From a candidate division KSB1 bacterium (lineage in GTDB: Bacteria > Zhuqueibacterota > Zhuqueibacteria > Residuimicrobiales > Krinioviventaceae): 64,000 nucleotides of DNA. The stretch spans positions 2,294,001 through 2,358,000 of the forward strand of contig JAXHMJ010000005.1 of the NCBI GenBank assembly GCA_034521575.1, read 5' to 3'. Each line of letters starts with the position of its first letter. The stretch's first letter is position 1. Below, piece after piece: positions 30,371 through 50,163 of this stretch. Below the pieces are notes generated by a model that was given only the letters and a program-made list of their open reading frames with translations, ran no database searches and was not told the DNA's origin. A program made the translations under genes and the position numbers.

Positions 30371-32866
30371 TCATTTTAATAACGTACACTTTATTACTTT
30401 ATTATATTTTATCGATTTGCATTGAATAAAATAAATACCTGATGGTAAATTGGCTGCATACCAAGAGAAGTCGTGTGAACCTGTGTCAAGATAACCGTCA
30501 TACAAGGTTTCTATTTTTCTACCGCTGATATCATAAATTTGTAATTTAATTTCTGTATGTATCGGTATATTTAATTGAATATTTGTGCTTGGATTGAATG
30601 GATTCGGATAATTATTTGATAATAAAAAACGGGTTGGTTTATCCAACTCGTCTATAAAAGACGGTTCAGAGATAATGATATAAACAATCATGGAATCACT
30701 CAATTCACCGTCAGTAACTTTTAGGGAAAACGTTGTATCGGTTGCAGTCGTTGGAACCTTTCCATTAATTGAAGAATCTGTTACAGATAACCAGGAAGGA
30801 TACTTGGAAAATGAATAAAATAAGTCGTTGTTCTCAGAGTCGATTGCAGTTGCATAGTATTGTAGGTTTTCTTTTTTACGAATTTTTATTGTATCCTCGG
30901 ATGTAATTTTAGGATTTGAATTATTTATTAAAAGATGTGTTGTGAGAGTATCTTTTTGACTCGGATTGTCCGAATCTTGTACTTTAATAGATAATTCATA
31001 ATTTCCTGATGAATCTGGAACACCTGATATTACTCCTGAATCATCAAGAGTTAATCCATTAACCAATTGTCCTGAAATAATCGACCAACTGTAAGGTGAT
31101 AAACCACCACTTGCGATCAAGGTATCGTTATAACTATTTTTATAAAGCCCATTCTTTATTGAATTCGAGAGAATTGATAATTGTTTTGATGCGATAGAAA
31201 TATAAACTTTTAATGAATCATAAAGTTCACCATCAGAGGCAATCAATATAAACGATGTGTCAATTTTTGTATGTGGAGTAATCCCGGTTATTGACGAGTC
31301 ATTAATAACAGATAGCCAGTGAGGATAATCAATAAATTCATAGTAAAGAGGATTGTTATCTGCGTCAATGGCTGACGCATGATATGTAAATTCTGTGTCA
31401 ATAAAAGTATTTACGCTATCGGATGATGTTATATTTGGTTTTTGATTTGAAATTTCCAATTGAAAATTCGCAGAATCAGAGACTGACGGTGTACCGGAAT
31501 CGGTGCAATAAACTGTAATATCAAAAACCCCAGATTGTATCGGGCGACCGGTTATTAATCCATGATCAGAGTCAAGCGACAAGCCTTCTGGCAAGTCATT
31601 TTCTTTTAAATGCCATGTTACAGGTTCGATACCACCGGAATATTGAAACTGAAAGAAATAAGAATTTTTATATATTGCCGTATCAATTTCGCTTGTGATT
31701 ATTTGAGGCTTTGTTGAAGATGTTATTGATACAGTTGTACTATCAGACCAAGCCGTTTCAAGATTGCTATCACTTGCTTTAGCATTTAGGACATAATTAA
31801 TTGGTTGTGAGAATGTATAATCAAATTCCGCATTAAAACCAGAGATATAATTGCCGGTCCAATCTGTGACTGTATTGTTATTTATGAGCATTTGTAAACT
31901 AATTCTGTCTTTATCCGGATCAATGACAAATGCTTCAAAAATGTTTTTAGCCCGGGTATAACCAGTATAATTATTTTTTAAAAAGATCGGAATGTTGGGC
32001 GGCAGGTTGCCATTGCCTTCGAGAGAATTCAAAGAATAGCCGATATAGTATTTTATTTCATCATATGAACCTGGCAAATTAATAAACGAATCAAATACAC
32101 CTGAGCTATTGGGTTGCATTGTATTATTTGAAACATCTAAAAATGTATAGTCAAGGGCTACCATTTTCCCTTTATCCATAATACATGCATAGATCAATGG
32201 ATACTGCATTGAATAATTAAAATTATTTTTTACCTCGCCCTGCCATTTAAAATAATCACCATACGGTGTGATGGAAACAGATTCTAATGTAAGGATCTGA
32301 TCCCACAAGATATCAGACTCGCCATATTCGACACCATAATCTACTTCAAACGCAACACTGTCAAACTCTACTTTATCTAAAAACGTATTAATAAATGAGT
32401 ATTTATAGGGTGAAATTCCTGATGAACGATATGAATCAAAATCGTTATATGTGAAATCGGTAGAAATGAAACTACCATTTTTATACAGTTTAAATCTAAT
32501 TTCAACCCATTTTAAATATTTTTTTTGTTTGTTCTTTATGCGCCCGAATACTTGATAATAACCTTCAGTGTATTCATAAATTTGAAAATCTATCAAGTCT
32601 AAATTATAATCTAATTCAATATTATGTAATGAGTAAATTGCATTATCCAAATCATTGTTGATGGATTCAAGTTGTTGACGAATTTCTACTATATTTTCTT
32701 TATAGCTGTTATTAGTATTTTTAGCCAATCGTGAATTCCGGGTCAGGGTGCTTTTAATTTTATTCTCTTGTGTTTTTAATTTTTGAATGAACTGTTCATT
32801 CGCTTTTGAATTAGATCCATAGGAAAAAAGGATTAGAATAAATAAAACATAAATTTTTTGATTCAT
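30371..32866 (-). CDS. Secreted protein with Ig-like repeats and a type IX secretion C-terminal signal
   Basis: 831 residues, exported. A signal peptide (MNQKIYVLFILILFSYGSNS) is followed by a coiled region and unknown beta domains. Then come two pairs of He_PIG/cadherin-like repeats: FQFQYSGGIEPVTWHL with LPEGLSLD, and ASGGLSPYSWSIISGQLVNG; each is followed by a DxDNNPLYYEF-type domain. The C-terminal sorting domain begins at NYPNPFNPSTNIQLNIP and ends PSGIYFIQCK. The start at 32866 has GGAGAG just before it. It is the only non-TA cargo that looks like an ordinary surface protein in this half of the island. It shows that the organism has a type IX secretion system. Confidence 0.88.
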   Translation of the reverse strand: MNQKIYVLFILILFSYGSNSKANEQFIQKLKTQENKIKSTLTRNSRLAKNTNNSYKENIVEIRQQLESINNDLDNAIYSLHNIELDYNLDLIDFQIYEYTEGYYQVFGRIKNKQKKYLKWVEIRFKLYKNGSFISTDFTYNDFDSYRSSGISPYKYSFINTFLDKVEFDSVAFEVDYGVEYGESDILWDQILTLESVSITPYGDYFKWQGEVKNNFNYSMQYPLIYACIMDKGKMVALDYTFLDVSNNTMQPNSSGVFDSFINLPGSYDEIKYYIGYSLNSLEGNGNLPPNIPIFLKNNYTGYTRAKNIFEAFVIDPDKDRISLQMLINNNTVTDWTGNYISGFNAEFDYTFSQPINYVLNAKASDSNLETAWSDSTTVSITSSTKPQIITSEIDTAIYKNSYFFQFQYSGGIEPVTWHLKENDLPEGLSLDSDHGLITGRPIQSGVFDITVYCTDSGTPSVSDSANFQLEISNQKPNITSSDSVNTFIDTEFTYHASAIDADNNPLYYEFIDYPHWLSVINDSSITGITPHTKIDTSFILIASDGELYDSLKVYISIASKQLSILSNSIKNGLYKNSYNDTLIASGGLSPYSWSIISGQLVNGLTLDDSGVISGVPDSSGNYELSIKVQDSDNPSQKDTLTTHLLINNSNPKITSEDTIKIRKKENLQYYATAIDSENNDLFYSFSKYPSWLSVTDSSINGKVPTTATDTTFSLKVTDGELSDSMIVYIIISEPSFIDELDKPTRFLLSNNYPNPFNPSTNIQLNIPIHTEIKLQIYDISGRKIETLYDGYLDTGSHDFSWYAANLPSGIYFIQCKSIKYNKVIKCTLLK

Positions 32867-32948
32867 TTTTCTCTCCACAAATTACTATGAACAGACTATC
32901 AACTTTGATTCAACAATGTTTATCTGATTTCCAATACCATGCCCGCTC

Positions 32949-33722: not shown

Positions 33723-34109
33723 TTATGACCACAAGAAATATTCCAGCTCGTGGACATTGATTCGCCAAACTGAAATCCCGGAATGAGTCACGCGTACTAT
33801 ACAGCCTAATCTCTTAACTTTTGTATTAAATGCTTTGTGACGTAAAAAACGGCGTATAAATATAGCGCTTTCTTCCTTGTTGACTGCCAAATAGACTATA
33901 CAATATTTTGAATGACATAATGATCGATTAAAAAAATCATCGTCGCGGGTAAAAAATGTCGGACGTTGTGAGTTATGTAATAATGTGATAATTCCTTTGT
34001 CTGTTATCCCCTGAGTGCCAATATTTAATCCTATTTGACGAAACGGGATTCTCCAGCTTTTAAGCAATTGGCATTGGTTTTTGATGATATTTTCATCAAT
34101 TATATTCAT
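33723..34109 (-). CDS. DUF5615/Mut7-C-like PIN-fold toxin
   Basis: A 128-residue protein: MNIIDENIIKNQCQLLKSWR with early Asp/Glu, LLHNSQRPTFFTRDDDFFNR and VYLAVNKEESAIFIRRFLRH. This resembles DUF5615 PIN-like proteins that accompany DUF433 antitoxins. It overlaps the DUF433 gene by four bases. Nuclease activity is inferred. Confidence 0.7.
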   Translation of the reverse strand: MNIIDENIIKNQCQLLKSWRIPFRQIGLNIGTQGITDKGIITLLHNSQRPTFFTRDDDFFNRSLCHSKYCIVYLAVNKEESAIFIRRFLRHKAFNTKVKRLGCIVRVTHSGISVWRINVHELEYFLWS

Positions 34110-34360
34110 GTAACTGATGATTCTAATTCGAATTCATCTATGTGATTTATAAATGCTTTTCTTGACAAGGCAACGGCTTCGGCTATTGCTTCTTTGCTTA
34201 TATTTTCTCTCCACTCTTCAATTATTGTTTCCCAATCCAATCCCTCTGCAACCTGTTCCAGTACATCAGACACAATAATTCGTGTACCTCGAAATGTCGG
34301 CTTGCCGTGACAAATTTCCGGATCGGAAACGATATATCTTCCATATAACTTTTTAATCAT
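34106..34360 (-). CDS. DUF433 antitoxin-like protein
   Basis: 84 residues with the DUF433 signature SDPEICHGKPTFRGTRIIVS, then DVLEQVAEGLDWETIIEEW. DUF433 proteins carry a short HTH and are regularly paired with PIN-fold toxins. First gene of the pair. The stretch 34361-34568 is AT-rich with no gene seen. Confidence 0.85.
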   Translation of the reverse strand: MIKKLYGRYIVSDPEICHGKPTFRGTRIIVSDVLEQVAEGLDWETIIEEWRENISKEAIAEAVALSRKAFINHIDEFELESSVT

Positions 34361-35391: not shown

Positions 35392-35985
35392 TTATTTGTT
35401 TAATTCTTCCAAATCTATAGTGATACCATCTTTTGCTTTTACATAATAAATAAATTTCGCCTCAATATTTTCAGAGAGGCTTTTTTTTGATTTATATGTT
35501 TCCGGCTTGATACTTACCGGGGTTTCACCAATAAATCCATCTATCCCTTTGCTTTCTTCTAAAGGGATTGCCAGGCGATAAGACGTTTGTAGTAATTTTG
35601 CTGTTTTACTTAGAATTGCCTCTTGAAATTTCAAACCGATGAATGTTTTTATGATGACTAGATCTTTCACCCATTCTTTTACCATTTCTTTGTCAATTTC
35701 CTCTATCACACTCTTAAAGTTTTCAACCATTTCTGTGATTTTGTTTGTCGCTTTGTCAATGGCATCAGGATGTCGCTCTAAATACCATTCTTCCCATTCT
35801 TTTATTGATTTACCTGTAAATTCCTGAATTAATTCACTCATTTGTCCAACAACAGCAGGACGAGTGCCTTGAGCATTTTGATTTGCCAAATTAATAATTT
35901 GGGTAGAATATTTTGGAAATTCAACCGGTTCTGATCCGAGCAGTTCTTTCATTTCCGAATTTTTAATCTTGATACGATTTCTCAC
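35392..35985 (-). CDS. Type II restriction endonuclease, MjaI family-like
   Basis: 197 residues, encoded directly after and overlapping (four bases) a DNA methyltransferase. PKYSTQIINLANQNAQGTRP, VGQMSELIQEF and SIKEWEEWYLERHPDAIDKA at the N-terminus, and GIDGFIGETPVSIKPETYKS near the C-terminus, look like the MjaI group, whose prototype cuts CTAG. The latter segment supplies the D..x-V-x-K core of a PD-(D/E)xK site. Assignment rests on remembered family patterns and position. Confidence 0.65.
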   Translation of the reverse strand: MRNRIKIKNSEMKELLGSEPVEFPKYSTQIINLANQNAQGTRPAVVGQMSELIQEFTGKSIKEWEEWYLERHPDAIDKATNKITEMVENFKSVIEEIDKEMVKEWVKDLVIIKTFIGLKFQEAILSKTAKLLQTSYRLAIPLEESKGIDGFIGETPVSIKPETYKSKKSLSENIEAKFIYYVKAKDGITIDLEELNK

Positions 35986-37289
35986 GTAATAGGCTCCTTG
36001 GATATATTTTGAAATTTATTTTGATGTTTAAAGTTGAATTCATCATCTATCGCACATAATTTGTTTTTTATCAAGTGTGCATTGATAAATGTTTTATTTT
36101 TCATATAAACATAGGCCAATAAATTGTTTTCATTATCATATTTTGTTTCGTCATATTTTAAATAGACCGGTCTTTTTAAGATTTTATTTTTTAGAAACTT
36201 GATAGCCTCAGTATGTTTATCTACCATGGGTTTGACGCCAAGTAATCTAACATTTAAATCGTTTGATAATTTGATAACATTCGGTTTTAAAATCTCTTTT
36301 ACATTGAAATAATTTTCCCGTTTTACACCATTTTTTCCGTCCTCGATATTTATTTTTGATCCAAATTTCATTTTATGAGGATCCATTTTTTTATCAAAAT
36401 TTACAGGATCGTGAAAAATATAGGGAAGATTATCGATTTCTTTTTCCCAATTCAGATCTGGTATGTTTTGATACTTTATAATAAACTCTTGGTCCTGAAA
36501 AAGGGTCTTTGTATCTACATTTAATTTATCTTTTATAATGGGTAAAAATTCTTTATTAATTTCATAACCGATGGAATTTCGATTACAGGACATGGCAGCT
36601 AAACAAGTCGTCCCACTACCTAAGAATGGATCCAATACCGTATCGCCAACAAATGTAAACATTTCAATGGCTCTTTTGGGTAACTCTGTCGGAAACATGG
36701 CAATATGATTGGTTTGTCTGGCTCCATTAAAATACCAATGCCCTAAAAAATATTCTTTCCATTTTTCTTTGGAAATCCTTGATTGTTCTTTTCGCTCTTT
36801 ACTTACTTTTGGGGCTTTTCCCGGTTTCTTGAAGATCAGTATAAACTCATAATCAATTTCAACGATGCCATTTCTTGGAAAAGGATAGGATCCCATAACA
36901 GTGGCACCCCCCGTTGTATTCATGGTGGTTTTCTTTTGCCATATTATGGCTCCCATATAGTCAAAACCGATTGTTTCACAAAATTTGATAATTTCGGTTC
37001 TTATGGGAATTATTTTGTAACGCCCATAATAAACGGCACGCGCGAATTGATCTCCAATGTTTACCATCAATCGACAACCTGGATGTAAGACGCGAAAACA
37101 TTCTGCCCAGACCAGATTCAAATTATTTATATAGCTTTCGTATGAATCAAAATATCCAATTTGCTGATCGGAACCATAATCTTTTAATTGCCAATAGGGC
37201 GGTGATGTAACGGCTAAATGTACAGATTCGCTGTCAATAGCATCCATTTTCCTTGAATCACCAATGACACAAGTATGTCTTGTTTTCAT
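35982..37289 (-). CDS. N4-cytosine-type DNA methyltransferase with a C-terminal SNase-like domain
   Basis: A beta-class (permuted) modification enzyme. The catalytic TSPPYWQLKDYG lies near residue 30 and the SAM-binding DTVLDPFLGSGTTCLAA near residue 215. The TSPPY form suggests N4-methylcytosine. After about residue 300 comes a separate domain: VRLLGVKPMVDKHTEAIKFL, then RPVYLKYDETK and LLAYVYMKNKTFINAHLIK. This resembles a staphylococcal-nuclease-like (thermonuclease) barrel. ATG at 37289 is preferred to TTG at 37301. With the 35392 gene it forms a restriction-modification cargo. Confidence 0.85.
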   Translation of the reverse strand: MKTRHTCVIGDSRKMDAIDSESVHLAVTSPPYWQLKDYGSDQQIGYFDSYESYINNLNLVWAECFRVLHPGCRLMVNIGDQFARAVYYGRYKIIPIRTEIIKFCETIGFDYMGAIIWQKKTTMNTTGGATVMGSYPFPRNGIVEIDYEFILIFKKPGKAPKVSKERKEQSRISKEKWKEYFLGHWYFNGARQTNHIAMFPTELPKRAIEMFTFVGDTVLDPFLGSGTTCLAAMSCNRNSIGYEINKEFLPIIKDKLNVDTKTLFQDQEFIIKYQNIPDLNWEKEIDNLPYIFHDPVNFDKKMDPHKMKFGSKINIEDGKNGVKRENYFNVKEILKPNVIKLSNDLNVRLLGVKPMVDKHTEAIKFLKNKILKRPVYLKYDETKYDNENNLLAYVYMKNKTFINAHLIKNKLCAIDDEFNFKHQNKFQNISKEPIT

Positions 37290-37429
37290 TATTTCACCCA
37301 ATTTTTCAATAATATGACTTCAAACAAGATAAATGAATTTGTTTACTTTATCAAATGAAAACTGTTCATAATTATCGCATTCGATCGATTGAAGCTAAAA
37401 TCAAGCAGCTCACCCCGCGTTTAAGACGC

Positions 37430-44776: not shown

Positions 44777-47700
44777 TTATAAGAATCTTTCTTCATCATC
44801 CAATTCTTCTTTTTTTATACATCGCTCGGTATATTCAATCATTTTTTCTGCCCATTCTCTTACCTTTTCTGATTGATGATCTAATAACTTCTCTAGTAGC
44901 ACTTTTTGGTTTTTAAAATATGGTACAGAAGAGCCAGTTATACCAAAAGTTCCCATGTTTGCAGAAAGCTCTTCGAGTACACCGTCCATGTTACTAAATT
45001 CATCAATAATAGACTTGGTAAAAGGGTGCCATTCTATGGTTTTATTATTTCCACTTTCTATTGGCATCATATTAGCAATTCTTCTTGGAGCTATATCATT
45101 ATGTTCTCGGACCCAATAGAGTATTTTTTCGTTACGGGAAGTGTTTTCAAATAAATGTCCTTGATGACCCCAGTTACCATTTAGAGTACCAAGCATATTT
45201 TTCAAATTAAAATAAGTGAGATAATCACCAATGAGTCCTGCCCCGATTATCTCCCAAACCGATTCATAATAATCATCTAAAAGCACCTCAAGTACGTTTT
45301 TGACATATACATCGAAAGCATAATTAAAGTGGGATTCAGAAGAAAACTCAATAATTTGTTCCGCTATAATTTTTGAAAATTCAACCTCATTTGAATATTT
45401 TAAAATCTTTTCAATACTATCAGACCAATGGTAAATATCAATATTACCAATATTTGAAACTCCTACTATTATATTATTTTTTTTAATCAAATCCTTAATA
45501 AACTCTTTGCAATGATTCCATTTATCATTACTCCCATAGCAATACATGTAAATCAGGGACAATGATGTCCAAATTCCTTCTTTGCCATAACTTGAAATTT
45601 TTTCACACAGACGTATTACTTCATCAGGCCTTAAATTGTCTAAGGCTCGTCCATATTGAAAATTTTTGAAGAACCTAATTGGTAGTTTTGATTCACCAAC
45701 TATTTCAAACAATCTTTCAAGATCAGCTAAATCTGGATTGGAAACTCGTGTTAGATAAAATGCGAATTGATTATACGATTCTTCACTTAGAGTCGTTTGA
45801 ATAGCTTGGATTTTAATGTCTTTATCATCACTACCAACCATGAAACCACCAATTAATTCTATATTTCTGTCTGACTCTGGAACTTTAGCGAAGGCTTCAA
45901 AAGCAAGACTTAAGAATTCATTTTTGTTCTTAATTAATTCCCCAATCTTTCTTCCAAAATTGAATGCTTGCCTTTGTTCACCGGAAAGCAATTCAGGTAC
46001 ATAAACATTCCATTCTATTTTGTCGTCAACCAATTTTTTTGCCAGTGCCTCTGCATTTAATTTGGGCTTATCTATGTAATGGCCATTTTTATCTTTCTCA
46101 TAAGAATCCCACTCGGGCAATGTCACTTTAGAGTATAAAAGATGTTTTATTCCATTTGGTGTGATTTTTATAATTAAAGCTTCGATTTTTTGAACGACTT
46201 CATTTGGTAATTTTTCAAACCCAAGCGTTATTTTTAATGCGTTTACTCCATCTAACCAATATGATTCCGAACTGTTAACAACATCTTTTACGGTGCTAAT
46301 TACAACATCAACTTTACCATCACGAATTAATGTTCTAAACGCATTTGCAAGTTTTGTTTTTGCCAAATCTTGATTAGGGTTTTTATGGCAAGCAAAATGC
46401 TTTAGAATTGAAATGGATTCATCCCAATATTCATAAATCTCGGCCCAGTTAGGATTGTAATCTTTAAGAGGGGCACTGCTTCCTTGTTTTTCAGCACCAC
46501 CCATTCTTGTATATCTATCATTGAGGATTCCTCTTCCTAATGAGTTAATTGCTATTCTATTATAATCATCATCCTTTTTGTCAAGCCCCCACTTTATGAC
46601 TCTTAACCTTTTGTGTAAGTTAGCCTCAGTTCCAGAAAGGAATAATTGAAAAAGTTGGTAAAATTGATTCTCTGAATTATTTCCGTAAGTCTCATTTTCG
46701 CCTACAGCAAAAGAATAAAGTGTTTTTGCTGCAATTGTAAAGGTTTCTTTTCGAAAACATAGTTTTTCTAAAGCCCAAACCAAATTTCTACGTCCAACTT
46801 TAATATTCTTGATTTCTTCTTTAGAAAAATCACTGAATGCGCTATTTAATGCTTTAGAAGTCGCAATGGGGTTCACTTCAACAACATAGCGAAAGAGCAG
46901 TGAACCCCACTCAGTATTAAGAACTTCCGCTGAACCAAAAGGGCTGTTTGGACCCCATAATTCATTAACAATGCTTTGAGCCTTGTCTAATTGATCTAAA
47001 TCTTTAAGTCGCTCCACAAACTTGGTGCTTAAGGGACTTCCTTTTAGAGCTTCTAAAATTAATATTATTTTATCTGGGGGAGTATTTAATAGCCAGTCGG
47101 ATGCTAAATTGATAGCCAATATTGTTGGCTTAACAATATACTGGGTACCTCTTTTTTCAATTATATCTTCATTTCTATATTTTTGACATATTTCGTAAAA
47201 GGAACTTTTGCTTATCTCACAGTCATAAATGTTGGTTCTGATGAATTCCATTTGCTTTTTTAATGATTCTTTATGTTCATTATTTAAGATCAAGCGAAGT
47301 TCATCATCAAGAAATCCGAATGTTGAAAATACAGAACAAGCTCTGATTACATTATATTCTACTTTCTCTTTATCATTACGGCTAAACAACAGTCTTTTTA
47401 TAAATTCCTTGGGCAGATTATTACTGAAATCGGCAATGCCATTTTTTTGGATATTGTTACAAAATTTTACTGCCATCCATGGGTATCCTTCACAAATACT
47501 ATTTAAATAGTCTCTATCACTTTGACTATGAGAGGAGCCTAGTTTTTCATTAATTATACCCTTTACAATGTCGCGTTGATCATCCCTTTCTAATTTGAAT
47601 GATGTTTCTTCATTTGTGGTAGAGGCAATATCAATGGTTATTAGGTGAAATTTCCCCATAGAATTAACCAATCCGGATAAAGCTCGGTGTGATTCCTCAT

Positions 47701-48586
47701 CACAATTGTCGACTACAATAATTCCTTCTTGATTGGTGTGGCTAATGATATAGTTACTTAAATCTTTTAAGTAGCCGTTTACCCCAATTTCAAAATATAC
47801 CAACTGTTTTTTCAGTGCTATTATATCTGGGTTATCTTCTTTTTCTCTAAAAGCTTCAAGAACTAGTCTTGTTTTACCTAATCCAGAATGCCCAATTATT
47901 CTAATTGGTTTTCGCTTGGCTAATGACTCGTATATATTCTGAATATGTTGCTTTATAATATTGTTTGTTTGATAAGCTGTGTCCGATCCTTCTAGAGTTT
48001 GTTCCCATTCTTCCCAAAGCCTAAATCCTGGTCTTGAAATATTGTTAAACTTCTGTACTAAAGTTACAGAACCAATGTTTTTATTTACCCAGTCCTTGAT
48101 GGAATTCGTATCAAAAACTTCAATATTTAATGTGTCATGATTAGAGAATCCAGCGTCCTTAATAGCTCTTCTAAACTCAGTTATTCGATCAACTTTGAGT
48201 TTGGTATTAAGGTTTTTATTAATGAACAAAACATAGCAACCATCACTTTCAACCAACTCTTGAACCATTGGTTTTAATTTTCTGTCTTCACTATCTTTTT
48301 TAGGAAGTAATATTTCTTCATAGCATTCAGAGGGATCTAATTTGGTTGCTTTATTTTGAAAAAGACAAAATCGACTTTTCAACCATTTGGTGTTATCTTT
48401 TCCATTTGTCCATTGAATTCTACCATCATCTCCACCATCTCCAGTTGTTATATTAAATGGAACAAAAGCGCTACCGTCTATTCCATTCTTCTTCAATTCG
48501 ATTTGCAACAAACTGTGCAAAAGTTTTGTCAGCTGAACATCATTTAACCTTTCTATATGTTCAATTTCAATTTGGTTTATATGCAT
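44777..48586 (-). CDS. Nuclease-STAND NTPase, Avs-like antiphage candidate
   Basis: 1269 residues. The N-terminal ~150 residues look like a PD-(D/E)xK (Mrr/Cap4-like) nuclease: LTKLLHSLLQIELKKNG, GDGGDDGRIQW with the Asp, and CLFQNKATKL with the Q-x-K. A STAND-type ATPase follows: Walker A IIGHSGLGKTRLVLEAF near residue 245, Walker B GIIVVDNCDEE near 305, and a GYPWMAVKFCNN segment (GxP motif). The last ~750 residues are helical repeats, presumably the sensor. This is the Avs layout, in which phage proteins trigger nuclease activity. The start at 48586 begins the conserved domain; an upstream ATG adds 20 unlikely residues. Confidence 0.75.
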   Translation of the reverse strand: MHINQIEIEHIERLNDVQLTKLLHSLLQIELKKNGIDGSAFVPFNITTGDGGDDGRIQWTNGKDNTKWLKSRFCLFQNKATKLDPSECYEEILLPKKDSEDRKLKPMVQELVESDGCYVLFINKNLNTKLKVDRITEFRRAIKDAGFSNHDTLNIEVFDTNSIKDWVNKNIGSVTLVQKFNNISRPGFRLWEEWEQTLEGSDTAYQTNNIIKQHIQNIYESLAKRKPIRIIGHSGLGKTRLVLEAFREKEDNPDIIALKKQLVYFEIGVNGYLKDLSNYIISHTNQEGIIVVDNCDEESHRALSGLVNSMGKFHLITIDIASTTNEETSFKLERDDQRDIVKGIINEKLGSSHSQSDRDYLNSICEGYPWMAVKFCNNIQKNGIADFSNNLPKEFIKRLLFSRNDKEKVEYNVIRACSVFSTFGFLDDELRLILNNEHKESLKKQMEFIRTNIYDCEISKSSFYEICQKYRNEDIIEKRGTQYIVKPTILAINLASDWLLNTPPDKIILILEALKGSPLSTKFVERLKDLDQLDKAQSIVNELWGPNSPFGSAEVLNTEWGSLLFRYVVEVNPIATSKALNSAFSDFSKEEIKNIKVGRRNLVWALEKLCFRKETFTIAAKTLYSFAVGENETYGNNSENQFYQLFQLFLSGTEANLHKRLRVIKWGLDKKDDDYNRIAINSLGRGILNDRYTRMGGAEKQGSSAPLKDYNPNWAEIYEYWDESISILKHFACHKNPNQDLAKTKLANAFRTLIRDGKVDVVISTVKDVVNSSESYWLDGVNALKITLGFEKLPNEVVQKIEALIIKITPNGIKHLLYSKVTLPEWDSYEKDKNGHYIDKPKLNAEALAKKLVDDKIEWNVYVPELLSGEQRQAFNFGRKIGELIKNKNEFLSLAFEAFAKVPESDRNIELIGGFMVGSDDKDIKIQAIQTTLSEESYNQFAFYLTRVSNPDLADLERLFEIVGESKLPIRFFKNFQYGRALDNLRPDEVIRLCEKISSYGKEGIWTSLSLIYMYCYGSNDKWNHCKEFIKDLIKKNNIIVGVSNIGNIDIYHWSDSIEKILKYSNEVEFSKIIAEQIIEFSSESHFNYAFDVYVKNVLEVLLDDYYESVWEIIGAGLIGDYLTYFNLKNMLGTLNGNWGHQGHLFENTSRNEKILYWVREHNDIAPRRIANMMPIESGNNKTIEWHPFTKSIIDEFSNMDGVLEELSANMGTFGITGSSVPYFKNQKVLLEKLLDHQSEKVREWAEKMIEYTERCIKKEELDDEERFL

Positions 48587-48746
48587 GTCGATAATTCTTT
48601 CAGATTGGTTCAGTCGGTTTTTGACATAAAGCACAACGGATGGCAATAAGAAACGTAGGGCATTTCAAAGCACCTACCTATCAAGCTGCCATGCCGTTTA
48701 TTAAATGGAATGTCGTTCAAATTTAACACTTTCTGCCCTATGTTTT

Positions 48747-49445
48747 TTATTGCGTGTTGTGCTCAGTTTTTTTCTCATTCATAGCTTCAATTATTGTCCT
48801 TATAAAAATTGCAGTGGATTTTGAAATTTCCATAATGTCGTCAAATAACGCTGTGTCTTTTTCAATTCTATTTTCAGAATCAACACATAAGAATCCAAAT
48901 ATTTCTTCAGCATTTTCCTTGCTTTTTTTCTTTATCGGTAGTACAAAAGTCGATTTGTAGGGTAATATCCAGTCGTTGTTATTTGAATTATTGTAAATAG
49001 TGTCACTTGGTTTGTCAAAATTATTTGAGAAAAAATACTCTTTCTTTTCACTTATGATAGAATTAAATGCTGTATTTTCTGAAATTGGATAGGAGTATTT
49101 AAAGGTTTCTCTATTTCTTGCAGATTTCGAATCTCTGGCAAAAGTTACAACATTAGCTTTATTATTCTCGTTAACTAACAATTGTAAACTTGCATTAATC
49201 CTTGAATTTGGATGAAGCTTATTGATAATATTCACGTAATTATCCAATGATGATATTAATTCATAGGATATTTCATTAAGTTCTTTATTTGATATGTCAT
49301 TTTCTATAAGTGATTTATAATATTCACTCATTACGCTTATTTTTTTCTTCGCCTTTGACATAGATTTTTTTGCAGTGTAAAAACTATAAATAACTGCAAG
49401 TACACTTATCAGCGAAGCTATTATTGCGATTATTTCAAACATCAT
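48747..49445 (-). CDS. Membrane-anchored GAF-like domain protein
   Basis: 232 residues. One N-terminal membrane helix (IIAIIASLISVLAVIYSFYT) and a short coiled coil precede a GAF-like domain: INASLQLLV, SYPISENTAFNSIISEKKEY, YKSTFVLPIKKKSKE and EIFGFLCVDSENRIEKDTAL. GAF domains bind small ligands. It overlaps the 49435 gene by 11 bases. Together they could be a ligand-gated membrane effector pair, although no nucleotide cyclase is seen beside them. Confidence 0.55.
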   Translation of the reverse strand: MMFEIIAIIASLISVLAVIYSFYTAKKSMSKAKKKISVMSEYYKSLIENDISNKELNEISYELISSLDNYVNIINKLHPNSRINASLQLLVNENNKANVVTFARDSKSARNRETFKYSYPISENTAFNSIISEKKEYFFSNNFDKPSDTIYNNSNNNDWILPYKSTFVLPIKKKSKENAEEIFGFLCVDSENRIEKDTALFDDIMEISKSTAIFIRTIIEAMNEKKTEHNTQ

Positions 49446-49812
49446 GCATGTTATTAATTTTTACGAAAAATTCGTCGCCAATTATATGTCGCTTGTATCT
49501 CTCAATAATATGAATAATCATAAATGATACAACCGATATTAATGCCCATATATTAATGTCAAATGTTATAGTATTGCCAGCTTTTATAAACCCAAAAACC
49601 GCCATAAAAAACATTGAAACAACAATTGAAGCACCTAACATCGGTAAATTATTGGATGATACTCCTATTGCAATAATGTACATTCCTGCAATTAATGTCC
49701 ATGTTTCACTTGAAATTACTTGAGTTAATGATTTCTCAATCAGAAGCGGCAATAATGGCAATAAGAGCTGAACAATTATGCAAAAAAGAAATTGTTGCCA
49801 ATTATTTTTCAT
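49435..49812 (-). CDS. Small multi-pass membrane protein
   Basis: 125 residues with about four hydrophobic segments (LFCIIVQLLLPLLPLLIEKS; TLIAGMYIIAIGVSSN; LGASIVVSMFFMAVFGFI; NIWALISVVSFMIIHII) and a basic C-terminus. First gene of the pair with the GAF protein, starting about 50 bases downstream of the 31-base repeat. Not recognised. Confidence 0.55.
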   Translation of the reverse strand: MKNNWQQFLFCIIVQLLLPLLPLLIEKSLTQVISSETWTLIAGMYIIAIGVSSNNLPMLGASIVVSMFFMAVFGFIKAGNTITFDINIWALISVVSFMIIHIIERYKRHIIGDEFFVKINNMHDV

Positions 49813-49864
49813 ATTGTTTTATTTTAGTTTTAATCATATTCACGGTCGTCTTTAAAATTGAGCA

Positions 49865-49921
49865 CAACGTCTGTGTATATGCTATTGTTCTTATACAGCT
49901 AATTTTGTGCTATAAGCACAA
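49865..49921. repeat. 31-bp direct repeat (right copy) and recombinase-type inverted repeat
   Basis: 49865-49895 is identical to 25251-25281. At 49905-49921 lies TTGTGCT-ATA-AGCACAA, a perfect inverted repeat with 7-base arms. A third half-site AGCACAA is at 49861-49867. TTGTGCT also occurs at 48769 and 44761, at the 3' ends of the two cargo operons nearest. Inverted 7-base arms around a short spacer are what tyrosine recombinases bind. The site lies about 35 bases from the recombinase remnant. Confidence 0.55.
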
Positions 49922-49955: not shown

Positions 49956-50163
49956 TTATTCAAAAAACTCATCGATTGGATTCCGAATTTTATCAATTGC
50001 ATTTTTAGATACATGAGTATAAATCTCCGTGGTTTTTGAGCTGTTGTGGCCCAATAACTCCTGGATATATCGAAGATCTGTACCTTGGTCCAGTAAATGT
50101 GTGGCAACGCTATGTCTTTCCACATGGGGCGTTACTTTTTTATATATGCATTTATTGTATGAT
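49956..50163 (-). pseudogene. Tyrosine recombinase/integrase, C-terminal remnant
   Basis: Read in the frame that ends at 49956 the minus strand encodes [20 protein letters not shown], then [35 protein letters not shown] and EFFE. These are the HxxR, GH and catalytic Tyr boxes of a phage/Xer-type integrase, of the kind common in Bacteroidota relatives. A stop closes the frame upstream near 50190, and the N-terminal two thirds are missing. It marks the right end of the island. Confidence 0.8.

Follow-up and report, generated by a model that had tools for sequence, protein, structure and literature searches.

A stretch of 64,000 nucleotides from a candidate division KSB1 bacterium (hereafter the window) carries a gene for a large nuclease-STAND protein. 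The question is whether this protein represents an unclassified branch of the Avs family, as an earlier note on the DNA had proposed, or belongs to a family that already has a name. The gene occupies 44777–48586, where that note had correctly placed it while leaving the strand unstated. It runs on the minus strand from an ATG at 48586 to 44777 and encodes 1269 amino acids. An in-frame TTG at 48646 is an alternative start, giving an open reading frame of 1289 amino acids (44777–48646); the ATG at 48586 lines up with the start of its nearest relative, a protein of Pseudarcicella hirudinis (Bacteroidota; L001) that is 51% identical end to end. Translation of 44777–48586 on the plus strand gave many stops. 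At the local composition, with about 6.3% stops per codon, the chance of an open frame this long is P ~4e-37.

Family membership and comparison with Avs

The protein matched the PADLOC model PD-Lambda-4_A (PDLC03991) with an E value of 4.3e-61, residues 21–1024 aligning with profile positions 1–1016, and a second, weak C-terminal stretch was also matched (1175–1278). When profiles of the window-side and prototype-side clades were compared with hhalign, they aligned end to end over 1228 columns (E 5e-121). A D...D / QxK / E motif at the N-terminus and a GxSGxGK[TS]R P-loop are common to the window protein and the prototype, as are the Walker B motif and the solenoid. The lengths are similar (1269 amino acids, and 1283 for PD-λ-4 protein A), whereas identity is only about 22% and the two proteins fall into separate deep clades. 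The contexts also differ: the window gene has no gene B and lies in a probable chromosomal integron context, while the prototype has gene B and lies in a prophage. Judged from these alignments, the window protein is a divergent, stand-alone nuclease-STAND protein of the PD-λ-4A family, a family already named, and the proposal of an unclassified Avs branch gives way to collinear membership of that family.

Other searches with the window protein were less informative. NCBIfam gave no match, and Pfam returned for the whole protein only sub-threshold matches to AAA_16 and TniB and a spurious one to Dpoe2NT. A PDB sequence search gave no match for the protein, and profiles gave matches at chance level only. 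No matches were obtained by tblastn in a phage collection, or in viral contigs when the single protein was the query; a search of the viral contigs with the clade I alignment yielded 16 loci. Homologues were collected from plasmids, viral contigs and genomes. They form two groups, clade I with the prototype and clade II with the window protein and members from Pseudarcicella, Thalassobaculum, Pseudanabaena, Nostoc, Kovacikia and rhizobia. The clades were separated with 100/100 support in an unrooted tree of switch and sensor with two long branches. One genome from the bacterial family of the window encodes a copy that belongs to clade I (L003, 1052 bits); the window copy was therefore probably acquired horizontally. 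Relatives were found on prophages, on plasmids and beside defence genes. One from the same class (L004; G026:C46:20159-23017) contains an in-frame TAG and is probably a pseudogene. Two relatives have another large gene directly upstream: a 1438-amino-acid protein on a viral contig (L011:1188-5504), with weak N-terminal matches to the LmuA and PDC-S25 defence models, and a 1372-amino-acid HTH protein in Rhizobium (L010:1858-5976), matching the PD-λ-4A family profile weakly over 44 residues.

The N-terminal motif, which the earlier note had thought unlike that of any named Avs type, is indeed distinct, and no Avs model was matched in NCBIfam or in PADLOC (none at E≤1); as a positive control, the Avs4 model of the same PADLOC library did recognise a genuine Avs4 nuclease. 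The comparison with Avs1–5 that had been suggested covered Avs4 directly, with two annotated Avs4 proteins as the reference, and Avs1–3 and Avs5 via library models. Profile homology to Avs4 ended at the P-loop, spanning 27 columns, or 42 with a deeper alignment, and the N-terminal profiles of the window family and Avs4 shared one 22-column patch around QxK (E 0.15). Avs4 proteins are also longer, at about 1588 amino acids. They share with the window protein the nuclease-STAND-repeat order and a QxK motif in the nuclease, and in Moraxella an Avs4 nuclease is fused to a PD-λ-4A switch (L023). Were the window protein a true Avs (AVAST) member, a new type descended from the same ancestor as the Avs1–5 sensors, then both the common three-part layout and the Moraxella protein would find an explanation. 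However, the missing model matches, the restriction of Avs4 likeness to the P-loop and the QxK patch, and the HEAT-like appearance of the sensor make this unlikely. By analogy, the window protein may be Avs-like in action, but it is placed in PD-λ-4A and not among Avs4.

Effector, switch and sensor

The sequence motifs on which the earlier note had relied are all present in the translation (GDGGDDGRIQW at residues ~49–59, FQNKAT at 76–81, GHSGLGKT at 232–239 and VVDNCDEE from ~291). The order of nuclease, STAND domain and helical sensor read from them is borne out by motifs, conservation and predicted structure.

The N-terminal effector (residues 1–170; 48077–48586, on the minus strand like the other domains) is assigned to the PD-(D/E)xK type from its motif and predicted topology. 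In 23 aligned N-termini, 19–49% identical to the window protein, residues D50, G52, D54, Q77, K79 and E91 are invariant. An AlphaFold2 model made from a 15-row alignment (mean pLDDT 81) has a helix at 16–33, strands at 55–58 and 73–79, helices, and a strand at 117–122. The predicted order is alpha-beta-beta-beta-alpha-beta, placing the aspartate at strand 2 and QxK on strand 3; this topology fits the PD-(D/E)xK order, as the earlier note had supposed. In the putative catalytic motif, D54 adjoins strand 55–58 and Q77-x-K79 lies on strand 73–79; residues 47–52, beside the active site, are modelled with low confidence. Searches of the N-terminus against Pfam and PDB families gave no match. The case for a QxK-type PD-(D/E)xK nuclease, made from motif and predicted secondary structure, is thus good but not closed.

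The central STAND NTPase core (residues ~200–390; 47417–47989, minus strand) was recognised by its motifs, its conservation and weak matches to AAA_16 and NB-ARC. It contains the P-loop G232-HSGLGK-T239 (GHSGLGKTR) and the Walker B motif D293-N-C295 (VVDNCDE), and both motifs, the Walker B as D-x-C, are retained in 30/30 family members examined. A Foldseek comparison of the model with the PDB returned the archaeal STAND ATPases 2fna and 2qen, ORC and RFC, the plant resistosomes Sr35, NRC2/4 and G10, SAMD9 and the Dark apoptosome, the STAND matches having E values of 3e-6 to 7e-4. In a search of viral models the switch matched AAA+ proteins for the most part, chiefly clamp loaders. TM-scores of the PDB and BFVD matches were low (0.2–0.3) owing to the domain arrangement and moderate model quality, and these predicted likenesses speak for a shared fold class rather than for close kinship. 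The resemblance of the predicted NTPase and following helical region to Sr35, NRC2/4, SAMD9 and Dark, together with a weak NB-ARC Pfam match, is likewise at the level of fold class; effector and sensor are different. From prediction and conservation combined, the central domain qualifies as a STAND-type P-loop NTPase between effector and repeat sensor.

Residues ~391–510 (47057–47416, minus strand) form a helical, possibly winged-helix-like region with a strand pair at 476–485, assigned from predicted secondary structure. The C-terminal alpha-solenoid (residues ~511–1269; 44780–47056, minus strand), the presumed sensor, was assigned from predicted structure and HEAT/ARM matches. The C-terminal part of about 750 residues that had been described as repeats is predicted to be all-helical (mean pLDDT 82), and residues 470–1269 as a whole almost entirely so at the same mean confidence. 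The best structural matches of the solenoid are the HEAT/ARM proteins SF3b, karyopherins and CAND1; such generic matches give no hint of a ligand.

Exchanges of the N-terminus occur naturally in the family. In relatives from Lelliottia and Enterobacter (L009:5023-9150 and L022:4209-8330), an alpha/beta-hydrolase sits where the nuclease is otherwise found, and the nuclease residues are lost; the N-terminal hydrolase is DUF676-like, and both genes are on Enterobacteriaceae plasmids. A Moraxella osloensis plasmid (L023:4503-8249) encodes an Avs4 nuclease domain on a PD-λ-4A switch and sensor, its residues 1–161 being 46% identical to the Avs4 nuclease. These natural swaps indicate, at the level of sequence, that the N-terminus would be the effector and the switch and solenoid the sensing part, and they separate sensor from effector with no engineering needed.

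STAND proteins also act as regulators, and the window protein could in principle serve stress or developmental signalling, with an N-terminus related to restriction endonucleases that binds DNA and does not cut it. The catalytic residues are, however, invariant across both deep clades, relatives reside on prophages and plasmids and adjoin defence genes, and effectors are exchanged for other types of enzyme. We consider a role outside defence very improbable.

Gene B and the proposed mechanism

PD-λ-4, a two-gene E. coli prophage system, was recovered in a functional selection for defence against phages (Vassallo et al. 2022, PMC9519451). A subsequent review mentions it solely on account of its P-loop NTPase domain (PMC10952713), and a search of the available literature yielded no study of its mechanism. 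A Gifsy protein, GiPD474 (PMC12724215), was considered as a relative and ruled out, being a ParA/MinD-like ATPase. The prototype locus (L033) is identical to an E. coli locus; its protein A scores 2530 bits against PDLC03991, and gene B (PDLC03992, 544 bits) follows directly downstream. DNA matching the prototype was present in 158 of 5426 complete E. coli genomes.

Gene B was not found in the window genome, in the Pseudarcicella genome or in 17 further genomes or records with A homologues. It was absent at all collected loci other than prototype DNA (L033, L047), although certain of the loci lacking B stop shortly after A, where its absence is less firmly established; close relatives of the prototype such as L030 also have A and no B. 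Given this absence from nearly all searched relatives, A alone appears to be the rule: by sequence comparison, the A protein would normally stand alone, with B seemingly added locally.

Defence was shown for A and B together in the prototype, where B may be required. PADLOC defines the system as A plus B, and a two-gene system so defined is not found in the window genome. With B placed immediately 3′ of A in the prototype, the window gene might be taken for the orphaned half of a two-gene system, inactive on its own. This is improbable: no B accompanies approximately 25 A homologues drawn from the two clades, near relatives of the prototype among them, and the catalytic and P-loop residues are invariant despite its absence, as for a working stand-alone protein. 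From the absence of B we infer that A is independent of a partner gene and that B would be dispensable for the window protein.

Our preferred reading, which we hold to be likely, is that the window protein, a member of the PD-λ-4A family, acts by itself as an NLR/Avs-like anti-phage system, its gene having probably arrived as integron cargo. In STAND and Avs systems, recognition of a phage protein by the sensor leads to ATP-dependent oligomerisation, which in turn unleashes the effector. By this scheme, the C-terminal alpha-solenoid would bind a phage product. Autoinhibition would then be released, and the STAND NTPase, whose fold is predicted and whose motifs are conserved, would bind ATP and oligomerise. 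Clustering would activate the N-terminal QxK-type PD-(D/E)xK nuclease, which would degrade DNA and halt the infection, and the infected cell would probably be lost. An Avs-like mechanism was judged the best account because effectors are swapped on a conserved switch and sensor; the sequence of sensing, ATP-dependent oligomerisation and nuclease action is taken from established STAND/Avs biology (PMC12931631). PD-λ-4A, until now a name with no mechanism attached, becomes a testable NLR-like sensor-nuclease. Annotation rules that demand gene B would overlook most of its members.

The attC-like site and the surrounding island

Directly upstream of the gene lies an attC-like site (48631–48762, minus strand), with R″ GCACAAC, R′ GTTGTGC and palindromic arms. 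A strict search for attC sites with GTTRRRY gave no repeated pattern; the element surfaced as a genome repeat with R′ GTTRTGC, one base off the textbook GTTRRRY. This 132-bp element had as good a fold in only 1 of 200 shuffles, and compensatory changes were present at 10 pairs among four such elements. A covariance model identified 22 elements, clustered in the genome, 21 of them outside the window site; the four from which the model was built match by construction, and the other 18 are independent. The aligned elements have R″ GCAYAAC, R′ GTTRTGC and covarying arms. At C4:88–94 kb a cluster of elements in the same orientation follows a broken integrase and includes a single-gene unit flanked by two elements. 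Together with co-oriented integrase remnants, the 22 elements (among them those at loci L067 and L070) point to decayed chromosomal integrons in which the integrase is oriented like the cassettes.

In the window, a 62-amino-acid C-terminal remnant of a tyrosine recombinase, resembling integron integrases by sequence match (49968–50153, minus strand), precedes the attC-like element in the same layout as at C4:88–94 kb; other tyrosine recombinases encoded in the genome resemble it just as closely in sequence. Between remnant and element are two overlapping open reading frames of 232 and 125 amino acids (48747–49812, minus strand) that could be placed in no family, preceded by a weak partial attC/attI-like match containing GTTGTGC (49862–49910, minus strand; E 0.057). 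No intact attC-like site was found 3′ of the gene, so that any cassette is at best decayed. A short repeat flanking the gene, AAAACATAGGRC, was insignificant alone (14 of 100 shuffles).

The gene is probably cargo of a chromosomal integron that has since decayed. The presence of antiphage genes in such integrons is already discussed in the literature (PMC12409362), and the attC-like site raises integrons as possible carriers of large STAND immune genes. A more far-reaching reading is that PD-λ-4A is a bacterial NLR lineage apart from Avs, with a HEAT-like sensor and a switch that act unaided, with at least three swapped effectors (its own QxK nuclease, the alpha/beta-hydrolase and the Avs4 nuclease) and a trigger other than terminase or portal, and that the window gene is a working 3.8-kb integron cassette. 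We advance this combination only tentatively.

The gene lies in an AT-rich island (~24–50 kb) of mostly 28–45% GC, with flanks mostly of 48–60%, in which nearly all genes are on the minus strand. The earlier description of the surroundings as an array of defence genes holds for a restriction-modification pair and PIN/DUF6364 units in the same island, but for many of the neighbouring genes no function could be assigned. The pair consists of a type II restriction enzyme and a methyltransferase (35392–37301, minus strand; PADLOC REase_II 1e-68, MTase_II 1e-176). The PIN/DUF6364 toxin-antitoxin units are repeated: at ~22100–44200 there are nine divergent copies of a 300-bp unit, 62–89% identical to the reference, with DUF6364/PIN toxin-antitoxin-like open reading frames. 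These copies have in common the GC-rich repeat GCAGGGCGACGAGGTTCGTCGCCC, and several appear decayed. A DUF433/DUF5615 pair at 33723–34360 also resembles toxin-antitoxin types. At 30371–32878 the island encodes an 835-amino-acid protein that combines Ig-like domains with a sorting tail for Por secretion (T9SS-type).
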